Assembly: GCA_014871385.1 (NCBI GenBank)
Contig: CM026423.1
Coordinates: forward strand, 4,592,408 to 4,656,407
Length of the DNA: 64,000 nucleotides
Source of the DNA: Ceratodon purpureus
Lineage: Eukaryota; Streptophyta; Bryopsida; Pseudoditrichales; Ditrichaceae
Reading direction: 5' to 3'
Shown: piece after piece, positions 2,767 to 59,711 of the stretch
Layout of the letters: each line of letters starts with the position of its first letter
How positions within the stretch are numbered: position 1 is the stretch's first letter
Program-made: the position numbers and the translations under genes
Notes under the pieces: model-generated
Databases searched by the model: none
Told to the model about the DNA's origin: nothing
What the model saw: the letters and a program-made list of their open reading frames with translations, nothing else

Positions 2767-4563
<1,797 letters not shown>

Positions 4564-19117: not shown

Positions 19118-19124
19118 TTTCAGT

Positions 19125-19153
19125 ATATGCCACATTTAAGTAAATCTGGACTT
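19125..19153 (+). repeat. Left terminal inverted repeat
   Basis: Pairs with 37587-37615 in inverted orientation, 27 of 29 matches (differences at positions 2 and 23, both T/C). Core GCCACATTTAAGTAAATC. Confidence 0.8.
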
Positions 19154-19317
19154 TCAATAGTCCAGATTGGTCAAAGTCCAACTGAAATATGATGGGTAGG
19201 GTGAATCGTAGGATCATATAATCCCGCAAAGACCTAACCGTTTTATGAAATTGAGAGAGACGATAAAGGTTAGAAATGAAAAATACAGCAAAAATTGCTC
19301 AAGATTATGTGCGGATC

Positions 19318-19610
19318 TTATCAAGCATGTGGATATTAAAGATTGGCAACTTGTAAAACATCATAAGATCCTACTATCCATGGTAAGTAGGTATATATAA
19401 ACACTTCACGTTAGAACATTACATAAACAGTAAAGAAGACTCCAAGAGTATTCATACGAAAGTTATCAAACATGTGGGTATTGTAATATTGGCAAGTAGT
19501 AAGCAGGACCGTAAGATCCTACGATGTTTGCCAACCTAGGTGTAAAAACACATCACATTATTTGGATTCTGTGAAATGTAAAGAAAAATCCAAATCGGAG
19601 TACAGCGTCT
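19318..19610 (+). repeat. Two diverged subterminal direct repeats, about 145 bp each
   Basis: A block starting TTATCAAGCATGTGG at 19318 recurs as TTATCAAACATGTGG at 19463. Each copy carries a decayed form of the palindrome (near 19366 and 19507) and then a similar AAACACTTCAC-like or AAACACATCAC stretch. They lie just inside the left terminal repeat, where transposase-binding subterminal repeats usually sit. Confidence 0.55.
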
Positions 19611-20206
19611 TACAGGATCGTAGGAAACCAGCACAAAGCCGGAAAGTCACTGAACCAATCCAATGGATCGGAAAAAGAGGAAACAAAGGACCTGAAAAGA
19701 GGGAAAACCTCCGGGAACGAGACAAGCTCGGGAAAAGTCCTGAAACGACTCACAGTCACCACCTAGTCCAAAAGAGCAGAAAAAACTAATCAAAAGGAAC
19801 AAAGGGGCGTGAATGTGTCCAAAACTAAAAAGGACTAAAATGAAAGCTACCCTGAGCAACTAATGTACTATCTACTCAGGCTAACTAAAACTTCAACCCA
19901 TTTCAACTACATGAGACTAATCCGTGAATGGCAAAATTAAGGTGAACAATGTCGTATTGATTGACAGAGTCTTCAGATTCCCGTGTAGAAGAGAACCGTT
20001 GCCGCGGATGAAAAGTGAGCAGGTGGGTGAGGAACCCGCCAGTGCTCACACTTCCAACTTGTAAGCAGCTTCTAAATACTTACAAGCCAATAGTATGTTA
20101 CTAGACAAAAAAACCAAAAAGCTTGCCCCGAGATTAGAACCTCCGAGTATGTGCAGTAGTGAATGCCAACGAAGGCCGCTGATGGTGGATGGTGATACTT
20201 GAGAAC

Positions 20207-20998
20207 TTATTTTCGACCAGGAGGATACAGTTCCTTAAAAGATGGGGTCAGGAAATTCGGCCCTAAGTAGGGCATAGCTCTCCAGCAATCTCTGTATTCC
20301 TCCGACTCTGTAGTCAGCTCAAGACGGTCGGCTTCGTCCGCAGTGTGGTCTCGATCGCTAGAAGCCGCTGCCTCAGAAAGCTCGGGGTTGAAATTATCCG
20401 AATCGGAGGTGAGAGAGGTATCTGCTACCGGGGGATGTTGTCGCCTTGTTGCTGAAGTGCGTGTGGCGTTGACGAGTGAATTGTTATCCGGCTTGGAGGA
20501 CTTGGCTCGGACAGCACTACACCCAGTATCGACGGATGGATGCACGGATCCAAACGACGAATACGTGGACTGCGGGCTTGCGTTCCCTCCGCACCACTGA
20601 TCTTGGCCAGAGCACCGACTTCCAGCACCCTCCAAGATGTCGTATGCTTCGCCAACAATGCGGAGCCACCCTGCAGTTGACATGGTTTCCGTTGACACCT
20701 CCCCTGTGTGGCTGAAGTGAACGCTGCCAACACTCTCGGACTCCTCAGACTCCTCGGACTCCTCGAACGTCAGTGGAAAGGCGATGCCGGAAGCCTTAGA
20801 GATCTCCAGCAACTCTATTGTGTGAGCAATACTCCAATCCCACTCCGCACCTGGCTGAAGAACGCGTGTGATGTATTTGAAAGCAGGAATAGCTCTGTTG
20901 CGTGAACGGGCAACCACCGCCCTAAACCATGGCCGGAGCTCCTCGACGTCAGCCGGTGTCTCCTGTATAAACCAGTCATTGCTACCCCGCCTCCCCAT
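20207..20998 (-). CDS. Ser/Glu-rich ORF, probable 3' exon of the transposase gene or a separate protein
   Basis: An open frame of 263 codons from ATG 20998 to TGA/TAG at 20207, GC-balanced like the other element exons. A splice acceptor TTTATACAG just inside the ATG would start an exon at GAGACACCG in frame, so this may be a downstream exon of the transposase transcript, separated from it by the 92-bp tandem array. The N-terminal part is ordered (FRAVVARSRNRAIPAFKYITRVLQPGAEWDWSIAH cut here: Trp- and Arg-rich); the rest is Ser/Glu/Asp-rich and probably disordered. I do not recognise the family, and the linking splice donor was not found with certainty. Confidence 0.5.
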   Translation of the reverse strand: MGRRGSNDWFIQETPADVEELRPWFRAVVARSRNRAIPAFKYITRVLQPGAEWDWSIAHTIELLEISKASGIAFPLTFEESEESEESESVGSVHFSHTGEVSTETMSTAGWLRIVGEAYDILEGAGSRCSGQDQWCGGNASPQSTYSSFGSVHPSVDTGCSAVRAKSSKPDNNSLVNATRTSATRRQHPPVADTSLTSDSDNFNPELSEAAASSDRDHTADEADRLELTTESEEYRDCWRAMPYLGPNFLTPSFKELYPPGRK

Positions 20999-21375
20999 AA
21001 CGACAAAATATTTGACAATATGCGACTAACTTCTACAGTTTGTGACTAACTTCTACAGTATGCGACCTTCTTCTACAGTATCCGGCTGGAGTTCGTCTAC
21101 TAAACTGGTAAAAATTCTAGTAATCCACTTCTTCTAGGGTTTCTGGACGTCTACTAGCCAACGTTCACCAATCCTAGTAGCACCTAGGCTCCTACTCAGC
21201 GATAAGAAAACATTATTAGGACTAGGACTAGCTTAACTAGCTGACAGCTAAAGGAAAGAAGCACATCTAAAACTGAATAATCACTCAGCAACTAGGCAGA
21301 GGCAAAAGCAGCATAAACGAGTGCAGTTTGATTAAAAAAAGTAAAATCCGAACAGATGTAGCGAATGTTCAACAA

Positions 21376-21763
21376 GGTCGTAGGATCCTACGATCTCTTT
21401 ACGAGTACTCCTGGGCAAAACGAAGCACTTCTAAAACAAAATAATCTCATAGCAACCAGGTAGAGGAGATCGTAGGATCCTACGATCTCTTTACGAGTAC
21501 TCCTGGGCAAAAAGAAGCACTTCTAAAACTGAATAATCTCATAGCAACCAGGTAGAGAAGATCGTAGGATCCTACGATCTCTTTACGAGTACTCCTGGGC
21601 AAAACGAAGCACTTCTAAAACTGAATAATCTCATAGCAACCAGGTAGAGGAGATCGTAGGATCCTACGATCTCTTTACGAGTACTCCTGGGCAAAACGAA
21701 GCACTACTAAAACTGAATAATCTCATACCAACCAGGTAGAGGAGATCGTGGGATCCCACGATC
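21376..21763. repeat. 92-bp tandem array, each unit headed by the 20-bp palindrome
   Basis: Palindromes start at 21376, 21468, 21560, 21652 and 21744, exactly 92 bp apart. Four full units are nearly identical between palindromes. The last palindrome reads GATCGTGGGATCCCACGATC, changed symmetrically on both arms so that it remains perfect. The array lies between transposase-gene ORFs. Confidence 0.9.
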
Positions 21764-21977
21764 TAGCGACAAAACTCTGGATGGATATGGGGGATAAATT
21801 ATGCGACGGCTACGGATCCATAAGGTTAGCAGCATCAAGGTTAGCCAATGCGTTTACTCGATCTTGCTTTGGGATCTTCCGTGTCTTGGGGTTTTCTTTT
21901 GTTGTGGACTTTGCAAAGAGCACTGAAGTTACATGAACTTGTTCTGGTCGTCGATCTTCTCGTACCCAAGTAGCGTC

Positions 21978-22292
21978 CTAGCAATTCTCGTACTTCGTCT
22001 TCGGGTCGGTGTGGCGATTTCTGGGCTCCCAGAATTCGATAGTGAACTGGCCATAGTCCGCATTTCGTTCATCACGATTGACCGCTGAACATGCTCTCCC
22101 TAACCAGACGGGATAAATATCTGGGTCAGAGGGACGAAGTAGGACCCAAGCCCCTGGTAGGACATCTCGCCATGGGTTCAAGGCGGGCTTCGGTTGAGCG
22201 GACTTGGGGCCACAATAGGGCTCGGGTTCTTCATCCTCAGGTGTGACATCCGTCTCGGGGAGGAGGCATAGAGGTGCACTCTCCATACCTGA
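21978..22292 (-). CDS. C-terminal extension of the transposase, in frame behind a TAG stop
   Basis: 104 codons continue the reading frame of the DDE exon after one TAG at 22295-22293. An internal ATG sits at 22286. The segment PGAWVLLRPSDPDIYPVWLGRA followed by FTIEFWEP resembles the small beta-barrel-like tail (W..GR / WWEP) that I recall following the DDE region in DUF7869-type proteins. It is therefore probably part of the same protein, reached by read-through, by splicing I could not define, or cut off by a recent nonsense mutation. The intervening 9 nt (TAG TCA GGT) leave the frame intact. Confidence 0.55.
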   Translation of the reverse strand, partial: SGMESAPLCLLPETDVTPEDEEPEPYCGPKSAQPKPALNPWRDVLPGAWVLLRPSDPDIYPVWLGRACSAVNRDERNADYGQFTIEFWEPRNRHTDPKTKYENC

Positions 22293-25200
22293 CTAGTCAT
22301 GATTAGGCCAGAAACCCTCTACCAAGGTCGTCACGGTTGGAGGAAGAGGTTTCTCCAATTCTGCGAGAATGCCCTTCCAGTAATCAATATACGGAGGAAA
22401 ATCCTTGCGAAATCCGGAACATTCAAGCATCCCGCGTTCCCAAAATTCGATGTAACCTTGAATTCCACCCTTGAGGAATGACTTCTTAACGAGATTTTTG
22501 GAAACCTGTTCTCTTGCCTTGTCTTGGTTGCCAGTGGACGCAACAGTCTCATCACCCCACAAATTCTTGAAAGGGACTGGATTGGGGATGCCAGATGGTA
22601 TCTTCGGATTTCCATCAGCATCCGCCTTGAATAGACGGATAGCCGGCTTGTTCCTAGGTAGCCAGTGTTGGTCAACTGCAAACTCCTTGAACTGCATGAC
22701 GGGCCACCCGCTTTCGTCTACATAGAATTTGAAGAGGTGCATATTTCCCAAACCCACGAGAACATCCGCTCCGTCAATGAGATAGCCTTCCACGAACGAT
22801 TTGAAATCCGCAACCTCCTGAACAAACTCGGGCATGAAACTCAATTCCTGGGATTTCATGAAGGCCAACATCAAGTCCGCAACAATGTAAGTATTCTGAC
22901 TCTTCAAGGTCTTAGACAGATGGCTAAAGTAGGCATCAATATCCTCGTGCGTGTGCCCCACCAATAAGAAACCAGCCTGGATCTCTTTGAATACACTCCG
23001 ATAAGTAAGCATCGACAAGAACCCCATCAGGAATTGATTCTTGTTGTCCTTTGCGGAGTTATCCAACTGCAAATAAAGTTTCACTGGGAGCGGAACGCGT
23101 TCACTGGAGTTATTCGTTACCGGGGGTAGTACGTCAAAACATCTGGACTTTCCCTTGAGCATGGCTCGAAAGAAGGAGTTAGCGGGCTCATGAGGGAACA
23201 GTTTGCCAGATTGACGAATGGGTGGTTCCTTAAGACGCCGAAGCAGTCTCGCAAGCGAGGAGATAGTGTAGTTAGAGTCGCCTGGCCACAAGTCTGTCGA
23301 GAAGTGGGCGTAGGCACCGTCGCCGTGCCCATGCGTAACCATGCCCGTGACATTCATAGGAAACTGTCCCAACGGTGAAGTATGTTTCGTGGAAACGCGC
23401 ATTCGAGGAATAGCCGTCTTTGCGGTATCCATTTTGTCGTGGATAATACAAAGTATTTCGCCCTTCTGCCTCTTTGACTCCTCCCTCCAAGTGTGGTACA
23501 GACGCCTACAAGACGACTGAAGATTGCAATGGTCATGTTTCTGTTTCACAAACTTGAGGTATTCTGGCGACCCCTTCACTGATCGGTCAATGTACTGGAG
23601 AAGAGTGTCGCACTCTGTGCACTTCGCGAAGGAACTCCCAACGGGTTTGATTGCGACATTCTTAAAGTGCTGCTTCTTCAGCCTACTTATGGCTGATTGA
23701 GACACCGCTGGTAACCCAAATTCTAAGTTGGTCTGCATATCAATCCAAACAATCTGCTAGTCAGAGATGTACCCTACTTGTACTCTTCATAAGCATTAGC
23801 AATGTGGAAATGAAGCAGGAATGCAATATTAAAGATGTTTAATCTAGAGAGTTCGTAGGATCCTACGATCCCAAAATACACCATCAATTTTGTGTAAACA
23901 TTTCCTCCCAACTTAGAGATCGTAGGATCCTACGATCCCAGAGTAGATGGGAATTTTGTGTAAACATTTCTTTTCGACTTAGAGATTGTAGGATCCTACG
24001 ATCACGTAGGAGAGTAATTGGTAGCGGGTCACTATGGATCGCTAATAATAAAAGGTCAGTACAGTAATTTGTGAACCCCGTTAAAGATCGGGTGAACCGA
24101 TGTTCCAAGTCGTCGGATCGTAGGATCCTACGACCTCAGGATTATCAAGCAGATGTCCCATGAAAGATACACTGAATTGACAAGAGGGCGTGTTGTTCGT
24201 AGTTAGTACCTGGGTGGCGTCTTGTTGGATCATTTTCCAACTGTGACTAGAGGGTAGAAACTTCAGTGTGTCCATCCTGCCAGGTGCTATCATTCTCATC
24301 TGATTGGGCATAAGATCAGTTGTCTCATTGATGATGGCTGTGACTGTCCCAAGTGCTTGCACTGTTCCAAGGCGGGGCCGTTTGACATCCTTGTTCCCGT
24401 GCGTCGAAGATACGACACCTCTCTTGTACTCTTTCATGTATTCGTGAAATGTCGATTTTGGTATACCATGGATCTTGTACCATGCCGTAGCGCATACATC
24501 CATTCCATTCAACGTGACGTACTTCTGCTTCCTATTACTTCCCACATAGTGGAACTGGCCACCCACAGACCGTGCATAATCCCGGCGTGCGTCGAAGTCC
24601 TTCAACCAGTACTTTTGTCGAATGACAAGTGTATCCTGGGGCCTAAACAAGCGGACACATTCGCTGGAACAACACCGCTGAGAGCACAGAGCTTGAATTT
24701 CTACGGGAAGAGTCTTCTTGGCATAGAGTTCGAGTTTCTCGTCTATCCGCTTTTTGCGCCGAATAAATCGATAGGGGGCTTTTGGGCGGCCTCCGAGATG
24801 CCTCTGGGTGTCTACACCGTCAGGATGAAGAGTGTAATAGTCAACAGAATCGCTAAGCCTATGCCCACCCTCAAATACACATTCCGCTATCGGCCACCTA
24901 CGATGGCTCATGATTTCCCCTGGATCCCCGAGGAAGACGTCCAGCACTGTAACTCCAATGTATCCCACTCCCAAGGTGTGGTCCTCGAAAGGATCCTCTG
25001 GACGGACGCAGTTGATTCGTCCAGAGGCCAAGGTATCCCCATTGTCGTTTAACCGCTTCACGACCTTCGCAACCCACTCAGCCTGGGGGACATATGGTAG
25101 GGAACTTGTGGAGTCCGAGCATTCTCCATCGCGCGTATTTCGGATCACATTTCTTGTCTCCCAAAGTACCGTTCTACCAAGCGCATCGGCCAAGACGGAG

Positions 25201-25487
25201 ATGTCCGTCTGTAAAGGTTGCATAGGCAGGTAGAGCGCCATCGGAGTTATCTCAATGGGACGAAGGAGGGTCATCCCGGGGGTTGTGTTCTCAATATCGA
25301 CCCCAAGCCAAGACCCAATGGGGTTCGCTTCAATGACAACGGCATGACCAACAATGCCATGGCCAGGATAGCAGATGAATACATTCAACCCAGGTATGAA
25401 TGGGTCTTGCTGCTCTGCCGTGTCAGAGTCGTAGTTATTACACGTGGGATCCATAAAGTCATCGTCTTCTCCAACACTAGTTGACAT
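22293..25487 (-). CDS. DDE/RNase H-fold transposase, DUF7869-like
   Basis: Two exons join in phase 0: 25487-24210 (426 aa) and 23732-22293 (479 aa plus TAG), 905 aa in all. The intron, 24209-23733, holds four palindromes. The N-terminal exon has a Cys cluster (C268, C272, C273, C277) and then a helix-turn-helix-like stretch, CATAWYKIHGIPKSTFHEYMKEY (332-354), suited to DNA binding. The second exon carries HDKMDTAK..IPR (Asp525/Asp528), LQLDNSAKDNKN (Asp650) and VGHTHEDIDAYFS (Glu689/Asp692), in the order of an RNase H-type triad. This D-LDN-HEDID pattern is what I recall of DUF7869 proteins. Expected role: cutting and joining the element ends in the nucleus. A 5'-UTR intron is likely, since a splice acceptor sits just upstream of the ATG (25498-25490) and a good donor lies near 26255. 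Confidence 0.7.
23733..24209 (-). other. Transposase intron with four palindromes
   Basis: Donor after CCACCCAG (24210) and acceptor ATATGCAG (23733). Palindromes start at 23851, 23918, 23984 and 24116, spaced 67, 66 and 132 bp. The spacers around 23871-23983 are visibly related copies of each other (GTGTAAACATTTC in both), so the cluster grew by tandem duplication of a unit of about 66 bp. Confidence 0.7.
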
Positions 25488-25577
25488 ATTTGATCACCTG
25501 TAAGTATGAAAGAAATCAATTCTGTTAGAATAAATGATGCAGAAAATGGGATTTTTTGAGCGAAGAAGTGGTGATGA

Positions 25578-25952
25578 GATCGTAGGATCCTACGATCTTC
25601 CACGGACAGAGAAAACGTTGGGTATCACGGTTATCACCTTAGACCCTCTTTAAGATAGCAGATGAAGGTAAGGTTGACACCCCCAGGTTATGTTAGCGGA
25701 TGCCCTTGAGCAATGGATCGTAGGATCCTACGACCTGTGTCCTGGTACCATGGAAGACACTATAGCGCAGAGATCGTAGGATCCTACGATCTCGTAAAGC
25801 CTTTGGTGGATGCGAAACCAACAATGGTATCGTAGGATCCTACGATCTTCTCATGTTGATAACGGATGCAAAAAACATTCATTGGATCGTAGGATCCTAC
25901 GATCCCATCGGTGTTCTCTCAAAAGTTAGAATGATCGTAGGATCCTACGATC
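25578..25952. repeat. Palindrome cluster upstream of the transposase start
   Basis: Six copies of the 20-bp palindrome start at 25578, 25716, 25772, 25828, 25885 and 25933. Spacing in the middle is 56, 56 and 57 bp with unrelated or weakly related spacers of 36-37 bp. The cluster probably lies in the 5'-UTR intron or promoter of the minus-strand transposase gene. Confidence 0.85.
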
Positions 25953-25999
25953 CTGCAAGTGATCCGGAATCGTTTTGATGAATATTCGTCCGTACAGTG

Positions 26000-26860
26000 A
26001 GTAATTAGTGGACTCTTGAATTTTCGGGATTTCTATATTAACTGGCATGTTTGTTTTACGGCAGTTGATAGCGTCAAACGCAAGAACCACGAAAAAATAT
26101 GCATTAGAAATTGCTATTGAAATGATTCAGCGATAACACTTAACATGCGATACAGTATGTTATCTAGAGTCGCAAATATATCAACGTAATATTCTTACGG
26201 CTTATCAACGTAATTAAGCAAAGAATAAAGTGGCCAGGGAAACTATGTGTAATACCTGGGAATGACGTCAATTTGGGTCCGTATTTCCCGGTGTGGACGC
26301 CGCGGAGTCGATGATGCAACACGGCGGAAGCTGAACGTGTTAACTGTAGGAACCGCTTCTAAATTATATTAGAATATGCCATTGGAATGACTGTGATGCA
26401 CTTAACATTGCAATGCATGATTTCTACATTCGCAAAATTAATACAAGAATGCCTATCCAGACGCCCGGAACATTCGAGCGCATCAATAATTGCTGGAACA
26501 CATTAAGTGTGCAAGAACCTATGGTCTATAGGAAATCAGTCAGGAATCGAGGGAGCAAGTAAGACTACTCTTCTGTCCATGCAAGATTCGTCATTTAGCA
26601 GTTCTTACGAATTATCAAGTTGATCAAGCAAGCAATTTAAGGGAGAGGAAACTAACCGGACCTGTGTTGGAGATTGTCCTCGGTCCGTGTTGCCCGCAAT
26701 TGACGCCGCGGAATCAATGATCTCCTTCGCTGGAGCTTAAGGACAGTGTGTAGTTGCTGAATGTCCAGAGAACATGACGTCGATACATGAAAACAAATAA
26801 CGATATGTCTAAAATGGAGGCGACCTAAGTTTAATGCAAGTCTTGGCAACTTTCGTGCCT
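26000..26860. repeat. Diverged tandem duplication of about 420 bp
   Basis: The block around 26200-26340 (GACGCCGCGGAGTCGATGA) recurs around 26620-26750 (GACGCCGCGGAATCAATGA), with related flanks before each (TTCTTACG followed by AATTATCAAG or TTATCAACG, then GGGAAAC or GGAAAC). On the minus strand the first copy ends with a good splice donor (ATTCCCAG then gtatta), so it may contain a non-coding first exon of the transposase gene. Confidence 0.5.
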
Positions 26861-28880
26861 TTACTGAAGAGCAAAGCTACGCCATGAGTATGAATGTGCA
26901 CTAGTTCTAATAAACTGGCAGAAGAAACCAAGTCTAGGAAACGAAGTCGAACCACAGAGGAGAAATACCACAGATAATACTTCTTCATGCATATGAGGTC
27001 TGGATCAAGATCAAGAACTGGTATGCATACTGGGCTTGAGTAGGGACGAAATCATTCTCAAGGTGCTGAGGAAATGAACAACTCCCTTTGATTGAACAAG
27101 TAATCATTTGAAGGAGCGTAGTAACAATAGAGTAGTCGGAATTGTTACTAAGCCATGAGACCATTCAATGAGCATCCTGAACACAGGGTAATTCAGTACC
27201 AATCATGAAGTCGCAGCAAATTGTCCGTCTTGTAAAGTATCATGATAATTAGGTGTGCTCGGAAGGGTATCTAATTGACTAGACAAACCACCTTCAGTGA
27301 AACAGTGACTGGCATCCATGAACCCTGAACCCTGAACCCTGGAAACCCTAAACCCTAAACCCTGAAACCTTAAACTCTGAAGTGCCCTGAAGTATTTTTA
27401 ATTTCAAATTTAAGAAAAATAAAATACCAAAATGAATAGTCCTCTCTGAGAATAGAAATAAAATGATTAGCAATTAAATATTCGTCAAAAATTGGAAGTT
27501 CCAATCATTGTACATAAAAATCCCTTCTTATCTAGATAATAAACAGGATCGTGCCTCCATGGCCACAATTTTGTATCATATTTCTCCGCTCTTGTTCCCT
27601 ACCCTTTTTTATTCATTTTTTTAATCTTCGTAGTATATTCATTTCTCATTTTTAGTTACTAGCCATATATTTATTTTATCTAAATAATTATGTCTTATAC
27701 TTTTTCGAAGTTGTAGCATATTAAGTGTGCATATACAAAAACAAAGTAAACTACATTGTATAAATAAAAGTTTCAAACATTGGACACAAATCTCCTCTAG
27801 TATGCATTTACAAAACAGTAAACCACATAATTTGTAAAATTAATAGTTTCAAACATTCAACACAAATTTCTCGTCTCATGCTTGTAAACACATGTCTACG
27901 ACCAACTTGCTATTAATATCTTTCTAATACATATTATGAAGTCCTGTTTTAATTTACCAACCATATATTTATTTTATGTTAATAATTATGTCCATCACTT
28001 CGAACGAAGTTGTAGTATCACTATCAACATTGTGCACAATGTACAACTTAGAAAAAAAAAAAAAAAAAAAAAAAGATATATAGTTTTTTCATCTTTTATT
28101 TTTTTAGGTTTTTTTTTATGAAACCCTTCTTCTTCCCCGTTTTCCTTCACCATTCTTTTATTGTTTTATTAAAAAGCAACCCATGATATTAAAAATAGAT
28201 AGTAATACCGTTGTTAGATTCCCAACTCCCGTTAGATGCATCCTTTAGTAAAATGCGTAATTTTACGGAAAATAGTAGACCACATTGTATAATTCAATAA
28301 TTTCAATCATTCAACACAAATCCCTTTTTCATGCATTTAATAAAAATACATTGAACGGACCCATGTATACGAGGTAATTGTTTAGAAACGTACCAAGTTC
28401 GATGTTTTGATGTTTTTCCATCGTTTATTTATTAAATTATCTTTCTATGTAAAAGGTATAATTTTTTTTAATTTACTAGCTATAAATTAATATCTTCCTT
28501 ATTCTGTTAATCATGTATATTCATATTAACCTTCGTAGATATTTAGGTCCTTTAATTTGTGGAAGCTGGCTTTTGTAAACCATATACAGTGTAGTATTTA
28601 CCTTCATTAATTATTGGAATCTGTATATCAAACTTCTAGACAGCTCTCAAACTACTAGACAGCTCTCAAACTACTAGACAGGTCTTCATTCACATCAAAC
28701 TAGTAGACAGCACTCAATGAATAGCCGCCTTAGTTAGAATTCTAATTATTCCACAGCTTCTGACATTTCAAACGCGTTCATCTTCCCAAACCCGGTTTCT
28801 TGATTTCCCGCGACTCCTCGGAGACTTGCCTTTTGGTTTCATTCGCGTTCTCTACGCATTCACTGTTTCAGCCGTAGCGT
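26861..28880. other. Element interior between the two divergent genes, mostly AT-rich, no gene seen
   Basis: No coding exon supported. At 27323-27372 there is a degenerate telomere-like run of CCCTGAA and CCCTAAA units. At 28052-28074 there is an A-run. At 28633-28700 a 19-bp unit (CTACTAGACAGCTCTCAAA) is repeated about three times. From about 28760 GC content rises towards the plus-strand gene. Confidence 0.5.
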
Positions 28881-29540
28881 ATGTGTTTTGCTGCTGAATT
28901 TTCGCGATCGTCCCGTGCGTTGTCGCTTTTGGTGTTCCGCTATTTAAACCTTTGCTTTCGCCATCTCCTGCGCCTTTGTTGTCGCCATTTCTGCCATTTC
29001 TACATTTGCACGCAGGTAAGCAATGCTCTTACGATGTATTTGTTCCCCATCCAATCGGTGTTTTGTGGTCTCGAGACCTACGATCATTGTCTTAGTCTCC
29101 AATTTCTTGAGTTTCTTTCCTTATGTATTCCTGCATCCAGCTTACATTTACTTCCCAACCTCCCTGTACAGAGTTACTCGGTGTTCGAATCCGATTTGGT
29201 GCAAAATTTGAAGACCGTGGTCTAACATCGGTGGATGGTGTTGCGTCGGTACACAGCTGCATCCTTCGGGAAGAGTGCGACGCTTTGATTTCAGGTAAAG
29301 TACTTGATACGACACTATCCCGCAAAAGCTGCCCTTTCGTTCAATTCCATCCTTTCTATGTAGCTTAGCCTTCGCTGAAGGTTTCTTTATGGTAGTGAAT
29401 GGCGAGCAAATGGACCGACGTTGATGTTATTTTTGGTGCAGCACTATTGCAAAATTGACTTTGGGTTATCACAGTGGTTGCCTTAACGATCCTGCTTTCT
29501 ACTCTCATGTTTACAGAATTGGAAATTGAGCAACGTCAGT
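28760..29540 (+). promoter_or_regulatory. Probable promoter and 5' UTR of the 1540-aa fusion gene
   Basis: GC-richer block ahead of the coding start at 29541. A splice donor (CACGCAG then gtaagc at about 29014) and acceptors (near 29170 and TTTACAG at 29517) suggest non-coding or alternative 5' exons. The segment 29171-29294 has exon-like borders and an open frame, but no frame joins it cleanly to the ATG exon. Confidence 0.35.
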
Positions 29541-32500
29541 ATGTCTTCGCAAGTAAGAGCAACGCATAAGGCTCTTGACAAGTAAGTATTCACAGAATTT
29601 TCCAACTCTATGCATTAGAGGTTCGTGTTATGCGTTTGAATCCAATAAACCAGTGACACGATTCATTCAGAATTGGACACATTTTATTGTTATTGATGTG
29701 AAATGTTTCAAAAATCGCTCCATTTTGGAATTCCTTATATGTACGGCAGTAATGATTACATCATACAGAGAAAAACGATCCTTATTAGATGCCCCAATAA
29801 GTATTGGAGCTGAGAGAGATCGTAGGATCCTACGATCTTCGAGTTGAGCACCGTTTATTTCCGAAACGCATTCTGAGGGTCGTAGGATCCTACGATCTCT
29901 TCTCGAGCTCCATCTTCAATTTGGAACCCTTTGGGAGATCGTAGGATCCTACGATCTCTCAACGGTTACGGAAAGATGACCGTGGCTCATCGAAAGATCG
30001 TAGGATCCTACGATCTCAAAGGGGAGTGGTTTTCCGAGCGGCGCATTAGAATGATCGTAGGATCCTACGATCTAAGACAAACGTGTTGTAATTTCAAACG
30101 ACAATGGGGATTGTAGGATCCTACGATCTCAAATGAGTAATGAACGAGATCTAATAATTCTGTTCTGTTTGATGCAGGGATAACTTAGAAAATGTCGAGG
30201 ACGTTAACCCCGACTGGCAACCAATGGTTTTGGCGGATGCTGTTTCCCGTGCGCTGGTGATACCTCCCATGTATATCAACGTCGACCCTGAACCAACCGC
30301 GTGGTTTGTCGCTGATAAAATTGTCGAGTGGGGTCTTTATTGGCATCTCGAACCCGAGACGGAGCGAGTTCTGATTGCGCCAGTTACGGCAATCATGGAT
30401 GACACCGCACCTAGCGGAGACACTTTTAAGCTACCCACGAATAACTTGGAGGTACTGGAAATAGCCAAGTTCGACGATCGGTTTATTGTATTAGTAATTT
30501 CGGAGTATGTTGCAAGCGTAAACCTTAGTCGCACATACGCCCTGATTGTTATGAAGGACGCTCTGATGCCGAAGCTAACTGACTCTGTGAAAGACCATGG
30601 CTTCGTGATCCCGAAGATTCATTTACCAGTTCAGAGGATTCTGCAATGCTGGACAGAGCTGAAGGCAAATCGTGATAAATACAATAGGGAACGTAAGAAG
30701 AAAGTTTCGCCCTCGCCCTTGAAAAAGAAGAGGGGTAGTACTTCTCTTAGAGTAGTAGATGAGCCTCCAGCGAAGAAACCATCTCAGCGCAAGAAGTCTG
30801 ACCCTAAGGTAGAAGAGATGACCCTCGCGAAGGTGGTCAACATGACGAGCAAGACAGTGGCCGGGAAATCAGCAAAGGAGCTGCAGCAAGTGAGGGCTCT
30901 TTACGAGAAGGAGTTCACCAAGCTACACATCTTTGGGAAGCGGCCCATCAAAAAATCTGAACGAAGTCAGGACGACTTGCTAGTCGACATTGACAAGCTC
31001 CACCGAGCTCCAGCGGGTAGCATTGTGTATCGGAATTTGGAGCTTAAACGAGTGAATCAGCTGATGGACCAGAAACGGGCAATGCCGTTTCAGCCTTCAC
31101 TCCAGCACCTCTACGTGATGCCAGTTAAGGGGGAACCGCCAATTCGCAAGGAGGACTTCAAGGATGTGCCTACGGAGACTTACGAGTATTTTGATCACAA
31201 ACCGACCTGGAGTGACATTAATGAGAGAACGCACTTCATCATTATAGGCGGGCAACACTGTGTTGCCGCACACAGAGCCCTCATCACCGAGGGTGGACTA
31301 AGTGAGGAGGATAGGAGAGATGCACGAAGTTTTATCGTCACTGTGGTCTGGGCCAAAAAAGAGGAGTGGAATCTACTCATTTATTATTCCCGGGTCCTAA
31401 ATCAAGACCTTGCCGGTGTGCGATCAGAGGGGAACTATCTTACTCTTCTGGGACTTGCCCGCAGAAGTTGGAGAGAGGCTGGATCGCCAGCACCATCATT
31501 AACGGGTCTTGCGCACTCACACGCATTCAAGGTATGCCAACATTGCATTACAGTTTTGTTAATGATTCCGAGATGTTAAATGTATCGTCCACGTTCTTCC
31601 GGATCGTAAGATCCTACGATCTCTGATTTCAGCAGTGTTTGTTTCCAACAAGCATTCCGAGGATCGTAGGATCCTACGATCTCGTGCAGAGCTCCACTCT
31701 TCGATTCCTGGCTCTGTGAAGGATCGTAGGATCCTACGATCTTCGGAATGCTGATATATGAAGCGCCACTGAACTTGGAGATCGTAGGATCCTACGACCT
31801 CAACTACACATTTAACATCAATCTGTGCATTCGATGTTCTGAATGATTATTTGGATGCAACGCAGAGTTGGTCTGACAAACTGCCCGCTCTGTTCTCCAA
31901 CTCCGACTCCAAGTCTATTGAAGATGGCAACACTGGCATACCGAAATATCCGCTGCTCTTTGTAGATGAGCAGATTTACAGAAAGTGGTGTGGTATTCAA
32001 GACAATTGGGTAAATGGTTTGCTTCCTGATGCGTTTGGACAGTATTCCACCTTCGTCGCAGGTGTGGATGAGGACGATAACAACGACGGGGACGGAGGGA
32101 TAGGAAGTAGTAAGAAGGAGCGTCTGAAGCAGAAGAGATACCAGGTGCGAGCACTGAAGCAGACTGACTTAATGCCGCTTTATTCCATGCGAGATATTGA
32201 CATCACGAAGGTTACGGAGCTGGTGTTACAGAAGAAGGTGTCTGTGAAGTCCACAAAGTCCACCAAGAAACAACCCGTTCTTCCGGGCCTGAATGAGGCG
32301 TGTCATTTGGAGAAGAAGCGCAGGCTCATCAAGAATGAGTTCATGCACTACTTCGAAAACAAGGAACTAAGGTGTAAGACAATGCGAGCAGACTCGTACA
32401 CCGATGCAGAGTATGATACCACGGCGCTGAAGTACAATGTAACCGAGGCCACCATAGACACGTGGTACGAGAAGCTAAGCAAGGATGTTAATGGAGAGCG

Positions 32501-35500
32501 TTTTTTTAGGATGCGGTCTTTGGCATTGTGTCCATCCAACAAGGAATCAGATTTTCCGACTCTTCTCGGTATGTTATTTGAGTACCAGAGAAAGAACAAA
32601 GGCGACCGGGTTGAGGACGTGGCTGCAACGTCAGGACCGTCCGTGGCATCGATGTACAAGTGCCTCAGAATGAGCAGGAAAAACGGGGATCTCGCTACAA
32701 TTCTTGATCCAAAAAATGGCGATATTGTTTCCTGGATGAAGGCGAATGCACGGATTACCATAGTCTTCTGCTTCTTGAACCGAATGGAGAAGGGGGCGCC
32801 TGACTTCTCAAGCATGGATCAGGTGGTGCGTTCTCTTCGGGCGATGGAGATCCACGATAAAGCGCAGTTCAGGAGGGCAAATTATTCGGGGGTCTTCATC
32901 ACCGATCGGGCAGGACTGGTTGACGTTGCCAACGCTACAGAGGAGAGAGGCTCCCGGGTCAATCAAATTCGGCCGTGGCTCCATACCCCGACTCTTTATA
33001 TTACACAGGGAAAGGAGGGATTTATCACTCCGACGACCCCTGAACCTACACTCCCCCTGTACTTCAATTTTGTTTATGGAAACGACTTCGATCAGAGGAC
33101 GCCTGATTCGATTTGCTTCCAACAAGCTTACGGTACAGACATGCCCTTCTACCAGGTTGTATCTGCAGCTGATTTCAAGGATCCCCCGACACAATGGGCA
33201 CAAGATGGTTATGCTAACTTCAACATCGATGCAGTTACACACATTCTTGGCACCCTGGGAGCACCTAACAACATTCTGGTCAACATTGGAGGCGGTCCTT
33301 CGATCACTTGGATTGGCCTGGTAAGAGGATCGTAGGATCCTACGATCTCATCCCCTGCAACCCGTTCTGCTTGTCATAGGACTCTCTTTTTATTATAGTT
33401 ACATCATCCCGTACCTAGTTGGGATCGTAGGATCCCACGACGATAACTACATTCAGTGATTCAAGCAAATTAGAAATTCAAGTTAGCGTTCGAATGATCG
33501 TAGGATCCTACGATCTCTGAATGAGTTTCGTCCTTCAACGATCATGCTTTGGGAGATCGTAGGATCCTACGATCTCCAAGTTCCGTGCCGTTTCACATTG
33601 AGCAGTATGAGGATCGTAGGATCCTACGATCTCGTTCCCTAAATCCTTTCTGCTTTCAATGTCTTATTCCATTTATTGTCGTAATTTTATCAACTACGGG
33701 CTTCTCGTATTCACTCTTCCACCTTACTTTCTGTTGTTACAGACAAGAGGCGCGCAAGTCCTCGAAATCGTGTTCAACGAGAATGAAGTGGAGAAAGCGA
33801 CGAAAACGGCGAGTGATATTCTCGAAAGTGCGAAAACGCTCGCCATAACTGTACCTGCTATGGAGGCTCTGACAATGAGGGAGAAATCGAAGAGGGGTGC
33901 CACTTCCCGGGAAAAACGTCCGATTGAGCTTTCCGACGATGAGGAGGAAGAAGAGCGAGAGGAGGTAGAAGAGGAAGAAGAGGATGAGCATGATGAACGG
34001 CGAGGAGAAGAGGAGGGTTTGCACCTCCGTGGAGGAGGTGCTCGCAAGAGACTGAACATGGAAGGATCTTCTGAACATGAGTATGGCTCACACAGTCTCG
34101 GCGGACGTCGGACCGACGATGCCGATGAAGAGATTTATGATGATCTTTACCAAGTATGATGCAGTTCCCGACTTCTGTACTAGTAATCAGTTGTGGTGTT
34201 TGACACATGGTACAGAACTAACTAGATGAATGTCACTATTGTGGAACGAACCATGCAATGTGTCATTGTTTAACATTTCGTGTATTTATTTCCGTTACTG
34301 ATCGCTTTGCAGGTTAACCATCCCGACCACCCGCCACCTCCAGGTGGATGCTTTCCGAGATCCGCTTTCACGCCGGAGTCCACCCTTCCGAATCCGCTTT
34401 CCCGAAGTGAACGCGGGATTTACTCTTCGACTAGTCCTGATCAAGAAAAATTCCAGGGGGGTACTAGTTCAAGTGCAGAGAAACGTTTCCATGGCGATTC
34501 TGGCCCTCCTGGACAAGATGCTGAAATGCAGTCAGCGGTAGAGGCTGCGCTGACTACACCTCCCTTTAGCATTACATCTTCTTCGCCAGTTCATGATCAA
34601 TGGGCTGAACCGTCTCCAATGCATATCGATACCGTTTTATTTCCGTCCGGAAGTCAGGCCCAAGGGTCCGAGGGTGATTTGCAGCAGCAAAATGTCGCGG
34701 ATACGCTGGCGCAAATGCAGGACGATCCGGATCCATACGCTCTTCCATCTGTGCCTAGCGACTTAGCAAAGGACAAAGAGGTACTTACTGGTGTCTTTGC
34801 AGATGCCCACAAAGCGGGGTTGCGGCCTTTCAGCCCTCCTGGATCGGACCCCTTCACAGTTTCCCAGGAAATTTACCGCTCGGAGTCTCGCTCCCGTGAT
34901 GTGCCGCCTGCGAATAAGAGAGCTCCCACAGAAGGTATTTCCCACCACTTTTCTTGGCGGAATCAGAGTAATCCTTTTTTGGGCATTTTCTATGGACTCT
35001 AGGATCGTAGGATCTTACGATCCAGAAGGGTCAAAATTTCATCCTTATATCATCTCCTTGCACATCGTAGGATCCTACGATCTCTCAAATGGATCGTAGG
35101 ATCCTACGATCTCTATTTTGGTTTGTCGAAATGTGACCTCCTCTTTCAGGATCGTAGGATCCTACGATCTCTTTTTTGGTTTGTCGAAATGTGACGTCCT
35201 CTTTCAGGATCGTAGGATCCTACGATCCATACGCTCGTCTCAGTGTTCTAACAGAAATGTCTTCTTTTGATCTCAAGGGTTAAAGTCTTCGACGTCTACG
35301 CAAAGCAAGAAAAATGTACCAGTTGTACCAATGAAAAAGGGATCTGCATCGTCTAGAGAAGGTAATTCTCGCCACACTATTTGATTTTACATGACATGTG
35401 TTCTGCAAGGATGATTCTTATTATCGATTTGGCTGTCTTTTGCAGGCAAACAAACTGCCCCCGCGAAGTCAACCGGGACTAGTGGCAAGAAGGTAAGGCA

Positions 35501-36101
35501 ACCTCGGTACACTATTGTGGTGGACTTGAATGGTTTCCTTGTATTGCGAGGCGGCAGTAAGAGTCAAGAAACCAAAGTTAGGCCTGACGCGGGAAAGTTC
35601 ATGGAGCTATTAGCAGAGAAGGCTAATGTCGTGGTATGGAGTTGTATGATCAGAAAGAATGTGGATAGGATTCTAGCGAAGGTTTTAGAAGGGTCAAAAC
35701 TTAAGCCGGAGCACCTAACGGTGCTAACGCAGACCGAAGCTACCAAGTCCAGTTACCGAAACGAGGAAAACCCAGACAAGCAAATCATGCTTAAGGACCT
35801 TAAGGTTGTCCAGGAAAAGCTTGAGCATGTTGACCTAAGCCGAACATTGCTCATTGACGACACCTGGTACAAGAATCTTCTCAACGATTACCATGATGCA
35901 ATCTTTCCCATTCCGTGGACGGGGTTGCCTGGGGACAAGTTCCTCATGTCCACTCTGCATCCATGGCTCGAAAGTATGTTCAAATCTGGCCAGACTGTTC
36001 AGAAATATGTCCGTAACAATATCCCTGAGCCCGGATTCATGGACTGTAGGAAGGACTTCACTAGTAAACTGGCTACGGAAATTCTGGATGGATGTAAATA
36101 G
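29541..36101 (+). CDS. ParB-like / methyltransferase-like / HAD (NIF-type) fusion protein of the element
   Basis: Seven exons join without a break to 1540 aa: 29541-29581, 30178-31531, 31866-33320, 33743-34153, 34313-34934, 35278-35361 and 35446-36101. Residues about 180-240 are Lys-rich. At 371-381, after FIII, lies GGQHCVAAHRA, resembling the GERR/GGQHR box of ParB/sulfiredoxin-fold proteins. At the exon 3/4 junction (about 925-955) NILVNIGGGPSITWIGL then TRGAQVLEIVFNENEVEKA resembles the SAM-binding FxGxGTT...IGIE motif of beta-class DNA methylases, preceded by a PPTQ like HPTQKP, but degenerate. Exons 4-5 are acidic, then Pro/Ser-rich. The C-terminus is a NIF/FCP-type HAD domain: DLNG at 1349-1352 (the plant DLNG form, Asn for the second Asp), VVWSCMIRKNVDRI, and LIDDTWYK at Asp1460/1461. 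Palindromes crowd introns 1, 2, 3 and 5. The function is unknown; a DNA-binding or maintenance role is inference. Confidence 0.7.
29818..30128. repeat. Palindrome array in intron 1 of the fusion gene
   Basis: Six copies start at 29818, 29878, 29937, 29996, 30053 and 30109, with steps of 60, 59, 59, 57 and 56 bp and spacers of 36-40 bp. Four are perfect; 29878 and 30109 have one change each. All lie inside the intron 29582-30177. Confidence 0.9.
31602..31799. repeat. Palindrome array in intron 2 of the fusion gene
   Basis: Four copies start at 31602, 31662, 31722 and 31780, with steps of 60, 60 and 58 bp. The first two spacers are homologous, in the same order, to the first two spacers of the intron 1 array. 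The array lies inside intron 31532-31865. Confidence 0.9.
33328..33631. repeat. Palindrome array in intron 3 of the fusion gene
   Basis: Five copies start at 33328, 33423 (three changes), 33496, 33555 and 33612; the last two steps are 59 and 57 bp. The first copy begins only 7 bp after the splice donor at 33321. All lie inside intron 33321-33742. Confidence 0.88.
35003..35227. repeat. Palindrome array in intron 5 of the fusion gene
   Basis: Five copies start at 35003, 35063, 35092, 35150 and 35208. The last three are 58 bp apart with nearly identical spacers (GTTTGTCGAAATGTGAC in both), a recent tandem duplication of a palindrome-plus-spacer unit. All lie inside intron 34935-35277. Confidence 0.9.
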
Positions 36102-36689
36102 GACAGTCATCATCTTGGATAATTACCCCACAAATTTAGTGTTAGGCGCGTCGTGTATACTTTGTAAAGTTTTGATTCATTCCTTTCAAGGACGCACATA
36201 GTAATGAGGATATAGTTCTCGTAGTGAAGGGTAAATACCGGTGAACAAGGTGGGTTTCAGTTTTTGAAGCACTTAACTATGAGTGATTCACTAGCTACTT
36301 CAATATTTGTATTGAGTTGCACACTTGTAAAATTTCTTATCTACATAAACTTCTAGGATATACCTCAACTTTTTGAATCCAGGTGTAACAACATTCTATC
36401 CAAGGTTGTGTGAACAGTATTTTGTTCACTACGAGGAGAGTGCAAATTGTAATATGATTGTAGGATTAGACCACGCACATTGAGTAGGGTTGTGTTGTAA
36501 CCCCCACTTTTACAGTAGTTCTGCGGTCAGGGAGTGATGTATAGGAGCTATGGTCTAGACGTGAATTAGGGACCTTCCGGATATGGATAAATCCAATTTT
36601 CCACATCGTAGGATCCAGTGATGCCCATGTACAAAATAGCCCATCCGATTATGGTTTCCATGCTTTTGCGATCATTGTTTTTATTTCGG

Positions 36690-36709
36690 AATCGTAGGAT
36701 CCTACGATC
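36690..36709. repeat. Single palindrome ahead of the second HAD-like ORF
   Basis: AATCGTAGGATCCTACGATC, one change from the consensus. It sits 4 bp before the ATG at 36714. A half copy lies at about 36604 and a decayed copy at 37380. Confidence 0.85.
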
Positions 36710-36713
36710 CATT

Positions 36714-37337
36714 ATGTTGGTTATAATATCTGGCCGTGCTTCATGTTCACAGCGACGAGACGTTTCGAGGAAGGTTATAGTGCTATCTGTTAACGGGATG
36801 CTTTGTTTTGAGCAATATATCAAGTGCACCCCCCGTCGCTTCAATCCGAGGAACATTATGGCTCGTCCCGGTCTTCTGGAATTCTTCAGGATACTTCTCA
36901 ACAACTTCGAAGTTGGAATATGGTCCTCCATGGCCCCTGCAAGACTAAGTAAGGTTATTCGATATCTCCTACCTCAGGAGATTAGATTGAGGTTGCTCTT
37001 CTGTTATGGACGAAACAAGTGTTCCAGGCCGCATTTGTATCCTTTTTGCGACAAGGAGCTATCCAGACTCGTAACGGACGAGAAGACGAAGCACTTCTGT
37101 CGTCCAGACAAAATTCTGATGGTTGATGACCAGCCAATGAGGCATGTTTTCAATGGAGACCTGGCGTGCTACTTTCCAACTCCGTGGAGTGGTGAAATGA
37201 CGTTACCCAATGCAGCAAACGTAATTCCTGACGTAGCAACAGCGTTGCTTCCGTTCATTCTGCCGCTAAAGTATTCCGCCTCGGTAAAGGAGTACCTGCG
37301 TAGAAATCAGAAGGATGGAAAGTTAAGCGTAGACTGA
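36714..37337 (+). CDS. Second NIF/FCP HAD-like protein, nucleophile lost
   Basis: 207 codons from ATG 36714 (an in-frame ATG also exists at 36618 but would translate the palindrome). It aligns by motif with the HAD end of the 1540-aa protein: VLSVNGML replaces DLNG, NFEVGIWSSM matches VVWSCM, ILMVDDQPMRH matches LLIDDTWYK, and FPTPWSG matches FPIPWTG. The HAD nucleophile Asp is Ser here, so phosphatase activity is not expected. A splice acceptor at 36751-36752 would keep the frame, so the ORF could also be a 3' exon of an undetected upstream exon. It lies close to the right end of the element. It is probably a diverged duplicate of the HAD domain or a separate capture of a host gene. Confidence 0.55.
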   Translation: MLVIISGRASCSQRRDVSRKVIVLSVNGMLCFEQYIKCTPRRFNPRNIMARPGLLEFFRILLNNFEVGIWSSMAPARLSKVIRYLLPQEIRLRLLFCYGRNKCSRPHLYPFCDKELSRLVTDEKTKHFCRPDKILMVDDQPMRHVFNGDLACYFPTPWSGEMTLPNAANVIPDVATALLPFILPLKYSASVKEYLRRNQKDGKLSVD

Positions 37338-37586
37338 TTGAGAGGTGGCACATTGAAAGAGTGCTACGTAGTGATGGTGGATCGTAGGATCCCACTGCAT
37401 CGTCTGTAAACAAACATAACCTTGTCAATAAATATATATTAAGCTCAATTTGTGCAACATTGTCTGAACTTCGGCTGAAAGTCGAAAAAATAGTGCATTT
37501 TTGTGATACTGCCCACGACATCATGGTGTGATCCCACGGTCTTATAATCATGCAAAAAGTGTACTCAAGGTCCGGTTTTTACCTTT

Positions 37587-37615
37587 AAGTCCGGATTTAC
37601 TTAAATGTGGCATGT
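37587..37615 (-). repeat. Right terminal inverted repeat
   Basis: Inverted partner of 19125-19153, 27 of 29 matches. Just inside it, 37508-37545 holds decayed palindrome pieces (GTGATCCCAC). Confidence 0.8.
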
Positions 37616-37629
37616 ATCAAACTTTGATG

Positions 37630-40203: not shown

Positions 40204-41376
40204 TCAAGGATTTGCGTAAATTCCCGGGCACTCCCACTTGAGATTCGGCACACAAGCGGCGTAATGGCACCACGAGCAGCCCTTGTTCACTCTGAACTTG
40301 TCGAGGAGGAGGATGACGGTACCTGCAGTGAGAAGTCCGAGGACGACAATGAACGCAATCCAGGAAACAACTCGCTGAGAGACTTTGTACATCTTCACTG
40401 GTGGAAGGTCAGGGTCTTCGTTGTTGACGATGAAAGCCTCGAGCTGTGAGAGATGACGAGTGTCCTTGAAGCCCTTCTGGGGGCGTTTCAAGAGGACGAG
40501 GCCGAGGAGGAAGCCTGTGGCGAGGCCTCCAACGTTGGCGAAGTTGTCGACCTGCGGCATGAGGCCGAATCCGAGGCTGATGAGGAGGAAGAGGATTAGG
40601 TCAATGAGTTTAAAGATCTTGCGTTCTGTGACAGGCCAGTTCATGAACATGTCGGCGAGGCCAGCTCCGATGAGCCCACAAATCGCGCCGCCAGCGCCTG
40701 CGAACACTTGGTTCTGGATGAAGAGCGCGGACAGTACGCTGCCGCCGAATCCCGAGATGATGTACACGAGTGATACTTTTGAAAACCAGAAAGTGAACTC
40801 CATGCGCGTTCCGACAATGAGGAGCACTATGAGGTTGAAACATAGCTGGAGTACGCCGCCGTTGAGCGCGATGGTTGAAGCGAGGCGCCAGCCCTCGCCG
40901 TGCTTCGTGACTAGGTTGCTCTCGAGCCCGCCCCATTTCAGAATTGCCGCGGAGCGAGGTCCGAGCATCGGATTCTCGTCCCAGGGCTGGAATGACAACG
41001 GCTTCAGCCAGTCGCCAACGCATTTCCGCCCGGCGGTGATGTTGTTCGGACAGTTGTTGTAGTACATCATGAGGATGAAGACAACGATGTTGCCGACCAT
41101 GATGACGGGCACAGCGATCGGCAGGTACCTATGCTTCTTGGGGTTGAATGGCTGCGGCTTCGTTGGCACAGCCGGCGATGGCTCGAAGATGTGGTCGTCA
41201 TGGTCGTGCACGCGCACACGAAACTCGCCCTTCGGGTCCGGAGAGTCCACAGCGCGCGCAGACGCGCCGTCCTTGGGTGGCGTAGTAGATCGTGTGAAGC
41301 CTGGTGCACTCTTGTCCATCGCTACACGCCGGCCTCCCGCTTCTCTAACTCCCTTACTCGTGAGAGTGATGCTCAA
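40204..41376 (-). CDS. Rhomboid-family membrane protein lacking catalytic residues (pseudoprotease)
   Basis: Single-exon gene, 390 aa, ATG at 41376. Residues 1-80 are basic and polar, on the cytosolic side; several membrane helices follow from about residue 85. Rhomboids cut substrates inside membranes with a Ser-His dyad. The fold is recognisable: NGGVLQLCFN in helix 2, the IISGFGGSVLSALF block, GAGGAICGLIGA in helix 4, and NFANVGGLATGFLLG in helix 6. The catalytic Ser of GxSG is Gly229, the dyad His of the usual AHxGG is Asn281, and the helix-2 His is Gln177; Asn181 is kept. It should therefore be a proteolytically dead member, possibly binding or trafficking membrane clients as iRhoms do in animals (inference). 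The gene is intact and GC-rich, so it is probably under selection. Confidence 0.88.
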   Translation of the reverse strand: MSITLTSKGVREAGGRRVAMDKSAPGFTRSTTPPKDGASARAVDSPDPKGEFRVRVHDHDDHIFEPSPAVPTKPQPFNPKKHRYLPIAVPVIMVGNIVVFILMMYYNNCPNNITAGRKCVGDWLKPLSFQPWDENPMLGPRSAAILKWGGLESNLVTKHGEGWRLASTIALNGGVLQLCFNLIVLLIVGTRMEFTFWFSKVSLVYIISGFGGSVLSALFIQNQVFAGAGGAICGLIGAGLADMFMNWPVTERKIFKLIDLILFLLISLGFGLMPQVDNFANVGGLATGFLLGLVLLKRPQKGFKDTRHLSQLEAFIVNNEDPDLPPVKMYKVSQRVVSWIAFIVVLGLLTAGTVILLLDKFRVNKGCSWCHYAACVPNLKWECPGIYANP

Positions 41377-59400: not shown

Positions 59401-59711
59401 ACCCACCTGCTGAGACATTTGTCACCCCTGATGACATGCATCCTCCCCCTGTCAACCTGAACGCATCTCCTGAGGACCCTCTCTCCACACCACCACTCCG
59501 AAGACGCCGTCCAAATCATTTACCTACAGCTATTACACCGGGAGTTGCAGCTCTTCACACCTGGAACGCTCACTACAGTTCCCGCAGTGGCAAACGGAGG
59601 CTCTGTATCATCTGCAGGCGTAGAACGGTGTGGGCGTGTAAACGGTGCAGGGGAAAAGCAGTTTGTCCAGATGTTTGTTTTCTGGCTGCCCATGAGGGCC
59701 TCCGAATTTGA
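53421..59711 (+). CDS. piggyBac-type transposase (PGBD/DDE_Tnp_1_7) with long N-terminal extension
   Basis: Nine exons join in frame to 1556 aa: 53421-53539, 53979-54388, 54502-54993, 55197-55253, 55338-55463, 55582-55674, 55786-55893, 56101-56529 and 56875-59711. The first 600 residues are basic, low-complexity and Lys/Gly-rich in exon 3, probably disordered. The piggyBac core lies at about 980-1390: CVDECMVGYNGR (Asp1130), VVMDNFFSS (Asp1215) and GVDTQDQ (Asp1327), the expected DDD triad, all present. A C-terminal Cys-rich finger (LCIICRR, CKRCRGKAVCPDVC) matches the DNA-binding CRD of the family. It would cut at TTAA sites in the nucleus if active. Splice sites are clean and the frame is open throughout, so it is a live transposon gene or a domesticated one. 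A 3'-UTR intron may run from about 59786 to 59892. Confidence 0.85.

Follow-up and report, generated by a model that had tools for sequence, protein, structure and literature searches.

Sola2-type DNA transposons have short inverted ends and make AT-rich target duplications of 4 bp, according to the excerpts available of PMC3627910, and Sola1 is recorded for the moss Physcomitrella in the available table of the review PMC9033089. Here we describe an 18,487-bp element of Ceratodon purpureus, located in a stretch of 64,000 nucleotides (the window; contig C3, positions 4592408-4656407, CM026423.1) of assembly GCA_014871385.1, together with a second family of giant elements related to it. The likeness to Sola lies in the 4-bp AT-rich duplications, the short inverted ends and the presence of Sola1 in a moss, a comparison made by description only. 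Unlike Sola as described in the available parts of these two sources, the elements here are 18-23 kb long, with a second gene that ends in an FCP1-like domain and with family-specific palindromes in their introns. The gene that we call T, in both families, matches DUF7869 (PF25273), a protein family of unknown function. A large size, a transposase with a second protein (encoded here by a gene that we call P) and one short motif in many copies are also features of En/Spm (CACTA) elements, in which an accessory protein has many binding sites, but the element has neither CACTA ends nor 3-bp duplications and its motif is palindromic and mostly intronic. Arrays of palindromic sites beside a gene with a GGQH motif (seen by eye) are reminiscent of ParB-parS by analogy, although that system is bacterial and homology of P to ParB has no profile support.

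Borders, copies and movement of the element

The borders were determined by searching 101 bp from each end against the Ceratodon purpureus assembly (362.5 Mb in 151 contigs, which include C1, C2, C3 and C6, the last being 110.5 Mb or 30% of the genome). Matches were scored for the best 40 of 153 left candidates and the best 40 of 51 right candidates. Left-end matches mostly started at query base 1-3 and right-end matches mostly stopped at base 99, and the element was therefore set to 19127-37613. A preliminary description made from the letters of the window had placed it at 19125..37615 with inverted ends matching at 27 of 29 positions. Those ends do bracket the element and the 27 matches were reproduced, this being the best 29-mer score in a comparison of 1 kb with 1 kb (the best 29-mers of 30 shuffles scored 19-21), but the genome copies place both borders 2 bp further inward. 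Between the corrected borders the ends agree at 26 of 27 positions.

19127..37613, whole transposon of family 1, window copy, 18,487 bp, borders set by the genome copies
19127..19153, plus strand, left terminal inverted repeat ATGCCACATTTAAGTAAATCTGGACTT, 26/27 identical to the right end
37587..37613, minus strand, right terminal inverted repeat, pairs with the left end at 26/27
19123..19126, left copy of the target site duplication, GTAT
37614..37617, right copy of the target site duplication, GTAT

The first 20 bases of the left end were found at 246 genome places with up to 2 mismatches, compared to 0 for the reversed control. At first look left-end candidates outnumbered right-end candidates (153 to 51); a degenerate palindrome overlapping the left query may have inflated its count.

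Thirty further family 1 copies were paired by eye from the lists of end matches (same strand, 17.8-95 kb apart, unpaired ends excluded), giving at least 31 copies with the window copy. Several copies with the same ends, flanked by short target duplications, had been anticipated for a transposon of this kind, and both were found. A perfect 4-bp direct repeat was present at the borders of 24 of the 31 copies; its sequence was not fixed, one case lying in an AT repeat and being ambiguous, and the duplications were mostly AT-rich in both families. Ten full copies were compared to the window copy, and nine were 98.3-99.2% identical to it while the tenth was 93.2% identical. The differences consisted of palindrome units gained or lost and a few blocks. 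Because nine of ten full copies are this similar, movement was recent. One copy, C6:110505124-110524267, stops 41 bp short of the end of contig C6.

To look for empty sites, the flanks of copies were joined after removal of 4 bp and matched to the available sequence. Two related empty sites were found, each with a single target copy and a gapless junction. The first (96.3% over 488 bp) is another unit of a tandem repeat; the second (93.9% over 901 bp) is located within or next to a gag-like frame of the sequence L093. Both are sites in repeat paralogues, and a third candidate was not clean. The expectation of empty sites was thus borne out for related sites, but not for the window copy's own insertion, which no empty site spanned among the sequences compared by joined flanks. 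Repeated sharp borders with terminal inverted repeats (TIRs), a duplication fixed at 4 bp and empty sites holding the target once are what marks a cut-and-paste TIR element. A recently mobile DNA transposon with these borders (within 2 bp), which moves as one unit and makes 4-bp duplications, is strongly supported.

Genes T and P and a second family

The preliminary description had proposed two large, divergent main genes, and our gene models agree, with T predicted on the minus strand and P on the plus strand. The splice sites of both genes are predictions that were picked to keep the reading frame. T and a small open reading frame (ORF), S, occupy the left part of the element.

24210..25487, minus strand, first coding exon of T with its ATG at 25487, open in 8/11 copies, by reading homologous to a frame of family 2
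22296..23753, minus strand, second coding exon of T with DUF7869 (probable DDE core; Pfam PF25273, E=2e-43), shortened in the window copy by an in-frame stop
21835..22295, minus strand, C-terminal continuation of T exon 2 in other copies, where it is open in 8/11; broken by stops in the window copy; by reading similar to the tail of the 671-aa frame of family 2
20207..20998, minus strand, ORF S, small, by reading resembles an ORF of family 2

The two coding exons of T (25487-24210 and the second from 23753) join in frame by a predicted splice. The match to PF25273 was far above the curated cut-off in the window copy (E=2e-43) and in family 2 (E=3e-44). Four acidic residues, D107, D110, D232 and E271 in the numbering of the window T exon, were invariant between the families, with 39 positions from D232 to E271. 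T is probably a DDE-type transposase, since it combines the DUF7869 match with conserved D/D/E positions whose spacing resembles that of a DDE core. The preliminary description had called this a DDE transposase gene outright; the match and the invariant positions agree with it, but the DDE call itself is unproven. Between families T was 66% identical with a ratio of nonsynonymous to synonymous differences (pN/pS) of 0.29, synonymous sites being saturated. DUF7869 was the only Pfam match of T, NCBIfam returned nothing, and relatives in viral and prokaryote collections were not confirmed. An HTH_psq match in the first exon of T of family 2 (E=0.27) was under its cut-off and was not used. ORF S matched no Pfam family, and a literature search for a paper naming DUF7869 found none.

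P lies across an AT-rich middle from T and would consist of seven exons, followed by a second FCP1-like ORF.

27001..29000, AT-rich region separating the divergent genes; AACCCT-like repeats at 27319-27381
29541..29581, plus strand, P exon 1 (predicted), in-frame splice model
30178..31531, plus strand, P exon 2, IIGGQH motif ParB/sulfiredoxin-like by eye only, open in 6/11 copies
31866..33320, plus strand, P exon 3, no known family (insignificant PHROG dUTPase match E=0.038, NCBIfam E=0.2)
33743..34153, plus strand, P exon 4, splice model
34313..34934, plus strand, P exon 5, splice model
35278..35361, plus strand, P exon 6, small, splice model; a direct join of exons 5 and 7 is also in frame
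35446..36101, plus strand, P exon 7, FCP1/NIF-like phosphatase domain (PF03031, E=1.4e-12), ends in a stop codon; family 2 homologue ~42% identical
36754..37340, plus strand, second FCP1/NIF-like ORF (PF03031, E=3e-9), start at a guessed splice acceptor

The seven exons of P can be joined in frame through GT-AG introns to 4623 nt, that is 1540 aa and a stop. This reproduces the 1540-aa fusion gene of the preliminary description, with the qualification that the script demanded in-frame joins, frame being one criterion, and that some junctions had alternatives. The same description had seen little decay in the element. This is true of the P frame, which is intact, but the T exon of the window copy is interrupted by two in-frame stops in a stretch that is open in 8 of the 11 copies compared, and its second FCP1-like ORF is short by 1 nt compared to most of these copies. 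The AT-rich middle was also as described, with ~36% GC between T and P and 33-34% at 27-29 kb. Telomere-like AACCCT/AGGGTT repeats were seen in or adjoining this middle in both families (27319-27381, and at ~10.3 kb of the family 2 copy L089 joined to L093).

Active FCP1-like proteins carry a DxD motif. The first FCP1-like domain has, by eye, DLNG in its place and the second is likewise without the first Asp; because of this alteration both domains may be catalytically dead.

The second family was evident from a protein search of the genome with T. Among the 90 matches listed, 58 were at 62-66% identity and the rest were family 1 copies or fragments. In the family 2 copy L089 the first exon of T and an S-like ORF were homologous by reading, and its left end ATGCCATATTTAACTATTTCTGGACT is clearly related to the family 1 end ATGCCACATTTAAGTAAATCTGGACT. 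The family 2 end pattern was found 149 times forward and 156 times in reverse with up to 3 mismatches (control 21 and 27). Twelve family 2 copies were paired from this list, ten with 4-bp duplications, one with an N gap and one non-matching. Ten of the twelve were 21.2-22.8 kb long (~22.5 kb), with two longer copies of 26.2 and 38.9 kb. In the copies compared by eye a homologue of P exon 2 lay on the opposite strand ~7-9 kb from T. An FCP1-like domain with ~42% identity to that of family 1 lay near the right end of family 2. Family 2 is a related giant element with the same gene order and layout as family 1.

P exon 2 and its family 2 homologue were ~30% identical with a pN/pS of 0.64 (synonymous sites saturated), making it far less conserved than T. 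Fragments of the P gene at 46-76% identity were seen at C6:74355121-74356377, 76843495-76844837 and 93697301-93698419, pointing to older, intermediate families on this contig.

Palindromes in the leader and introns

The window contained 43 matches with up to 4 mismatches to the 18-mer ATCGTAGGATCCTACGAT, two of which overlap neighbours. All 43 were inside the element, as the preliminary description had held for the region between the inverted ends. None of the 43 fell in the modelled exons (9,202 of 18,487 bp), a count that depends on the splice models, as the sites at 24117, 33329 and 36691 lie within or border on stop-to-stop frames that the models end or begin at predicted splice sites.

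25579..25951, palindrome array in the T leader, 6 sites
23852..24134, palindrome array in the T intron, 4 sites, part of it a 66-bp tandem repeat
21377..21762, array of 5 palindromes separating T from S, tandem unit of 92 bp
29819..30127, array of 6 palindromes in intron 1 of P
31603..31798, array of 4 palindromes in intron 2 of P
33329..33630, array of 5 palindromes in intron 3 of P
35004..35226, array of 5 palindromes in intron 5 of P, part of it a 58-bp tandem repeat
36691..36708, single palindrome ahead of the second FCP1-like domain, within stop-to-stop frame 36612-37337
19205..19525, left-end region with three palindromes in degenerate form
37381..37398, one palindrome in degenerate form close to the right end

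The exact palindromic 20-mer occurred 609 times in the genome (control 0), and among the matches listed (~50 sites) all were in three element copies. Family 2 has its own form of the palindrome, ATCGRGGGATCTCYCGAT, with 17 sites in L089. The frame common to both families, ATCGNNRGATCYNNCGAT (ATCG-nn-RGATCY-nn-CGAT), was found at 3,288 genome places compared to 1 for the reversed control. The nn positions differ by family, being TA..TA in family 1 and GG/AG..CC/CT in family 2, and are changed on both arms. P intron 2 holds sites in both families, two family 2 sites lying past the same splice donor in another family 2 copy. Five family 2-type palindromes were also seen at C1:128916-129332, ~129 kb from the contig start. 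A CRISPR-like repeat-spacer reading was dropped, as the copies are 98-99% alike overall (spacers were not compared separately).

Taken together, we think it likely that this is a recently mobile giant cut-and-paste transposon whose T protein cuts the ends and whose palindromes are sites for a protein that the element encodes. T would bind the ends, cut the element out and insert it at a 4-bp staggered cut. The palindromes of 18-20 bp, located in the T leader and the long introns and in degenerate form near the ends, would be bound by a dimeric element protein, either T or the fast-evolving P, and this binding would serve transcriptional self-regulation, assembly of the ends or both. The FCP1-like domain of P may touch the host transcription machinery, any role of P beyond palindrome binding being a guess.

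Several results weigh against parts of this interpretation. No matching 4-bp duplication was found in 7 of the 31 family 1 copies (C6:110505124, C6:107096859, C6:30438753, C6:15326534, C2:26533737, C6:71221158 with damaged ends, and C6:22156186). Comparison of T with PDB sequences gave nothing beyond chance (T alone E 0.46 or worse), and the ParB-like reading of P had no match in Pfam, NCBIfam, PHROGs or PDB sequences. The L089 site at 6669 falls in the T coding exon, and the family 2 sites are imperfect palindromes whose asymmetry tracks gene direction, which a plain dimer site does not need. Among the nine near copies palindromes varied barely less than their flanks (1.04% vs 1.31%) and no less than the other noncoding DNA of these copies (1.06%); in the 93% copy the values were 5.5% for palindromes and 7.8% for flanks. 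Recent tandem duplication explains the likeness of the sites wholly or partly in three of the seven family 1 clusters (21377, 23852 and 35004).

Such duplications, along with the variation of palindrome unit numbers among copies and the low purifying signal on palindromes among young copies, are what would be expected of a functionless micro-repeat multiplied inside the element through duplication and conversion. The arrays in introns 1 and 2 of P are moreover paralogous (29818-29912 vs 31602-31696), and as they are 82% alike over 95 nt, arrays may have been copied from intron to intron. A neutral origin nevertheless seems improbable to us. In the other four clusters the sites were 94-98% alike while the spacers were randomised, with values of 0.36-0.49 compared to 0.36-0.45 for shuffled sequence. 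The palindromes are uniform inside each family yet altered on both arms between families, and the modelled exons of the window copy are free of them, though the one site in the T coding exon of family 2 detracts from this. We infer from the weak palindrome signal and the randomised spacers that the site itself is under selection or homogenisation.

The palindromes could instead act in RNA, with long intron hairpins that draw splice sites together or feed small-RNA production. The intron RNAs fold very well owing to the palindromes, that of P intron 2 far better than its shuffles (z -12.2), and P introns 1 and 2 showed pairing beyond the palindromes against spacer-shuffled controls (z -4.5 and -6.1). 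The orientation of family 2 sites with transcription would also fit an RNA role. However, the antisense strand of the same two introns showed extra pairing too (z -4.0 and -4.3), and four of six family 1 stretches and the family 2 leader had none beyond the palindromes. Folding of that leader was better in antisense (z -7.9) than in sense (z -3.3), and family 2 sense RNA has an A.C mismatch at a fixed site pair in 14 of the 17 sites of L089. Because extra pairing is absent in most stretches and these mismatches occur in the sense RNA, a DNA site is favoured and an RNA role appears doubtful. The palindromes would then be DNA sites of an element-encoded protein.

Superfamily and the probable sex chromosome

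Target duplications are 2-3 bp for CACTA, 8 bp for hAT, 9-11 bp for MULE and 0 bp for Helitron. These four classes were ruled out by the 4-bp duplications and by the lack of their Pfam domains in the element ORFs searched. PiggyBac was ruled out as the targets vary and are not TTAA, and as T has DUF7869 only and no DDE_Tnp_1_7. What remains is a giant transposon with TIRs that carries a second gene and a palindrome code particular to its family. It may represent a new superfamily, in line with the unrecognised type proposed in the preliminary description. That the element is instead a giant member of Sola (Sola1 or Sola2), enlarged by the second gene, is a serious possibility, if somewhat short of probable. 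The 4-bp, mostly AT-rich duplications of both families agree with those given for Sola2-type elements, as do the short inverted ends (PMC3627910, available excerpts), and Physcomitrella has a Sola1 entry in the review table (PMC9033089, available part). Against this, the sole Pfam match of T is DUF7869 and NCBIfam has none, Sola being compared by description only, and neither a second gene nor palindromes are mentioned for Sola in those parts of the two sources. We put forward with considerable reserve the fuller proposal of a new superfamily of giant plant elements defined by a DUF7869 transposase, a fast-evolving second protein working with it and a palindromic address code rewritten on both arms as each new family arises, by which each family would recognise its own DNA alone.

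Two other genes were seen in the window. An ORF of 955 aa at 56844-59711 (plus strand) encodes a piggyBac-type DDE_Tnp_1_7 domain (E=1e-74) and belongs to an unrelated second DNA transposon. An ORF of 419 aa at 40204-41463 (minus strand), 2.6 kb right of the element, has a rhomboid protease domain (E=9e-28) and is probably a host gene. No RNA families were detected in the searched sequence at the gathering threshold.

Both families are crowded on C6, which holds 22 of the 31 family 1 copies. Among the 150 matches listed from a search with the FCP1-like domain, 100 were at family 2 level (37-43% identity) and 79 of these 100 were on C6. Reportedly, the account of the Ceratodon genome by Carey et al. 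2021 speaks of cut-and-paste transposons of an undescribed superfamily on the sex chromosomes. If that superfamily is this element, its existence is already in print and its anatomy is not. The statement was not found in the available parts of PMC11062472 or PMC8000587. Ceratodon purpureus has a genome of ~360 Mb with sex chromosomes of >100 Mb, ~30% of the genome (PMC8000587, available part), and both sex chromosomes are repeat-rich (PMC11062472, available part); we infer that C6 is a sex chromosome.

With 18-23 kb, long open genes, near-identical copies and a palindrome code of their own, these elements would to our knowledge rank with the largest DNA transposons of plants, and DUF7869 would gain a mechanism from them. 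The two families would form a natural pair in which the protein and the DNA site appear to have changed together, and, with C6 taken as a sex chromosome, their copies there bear on how sex chromosomes grow.

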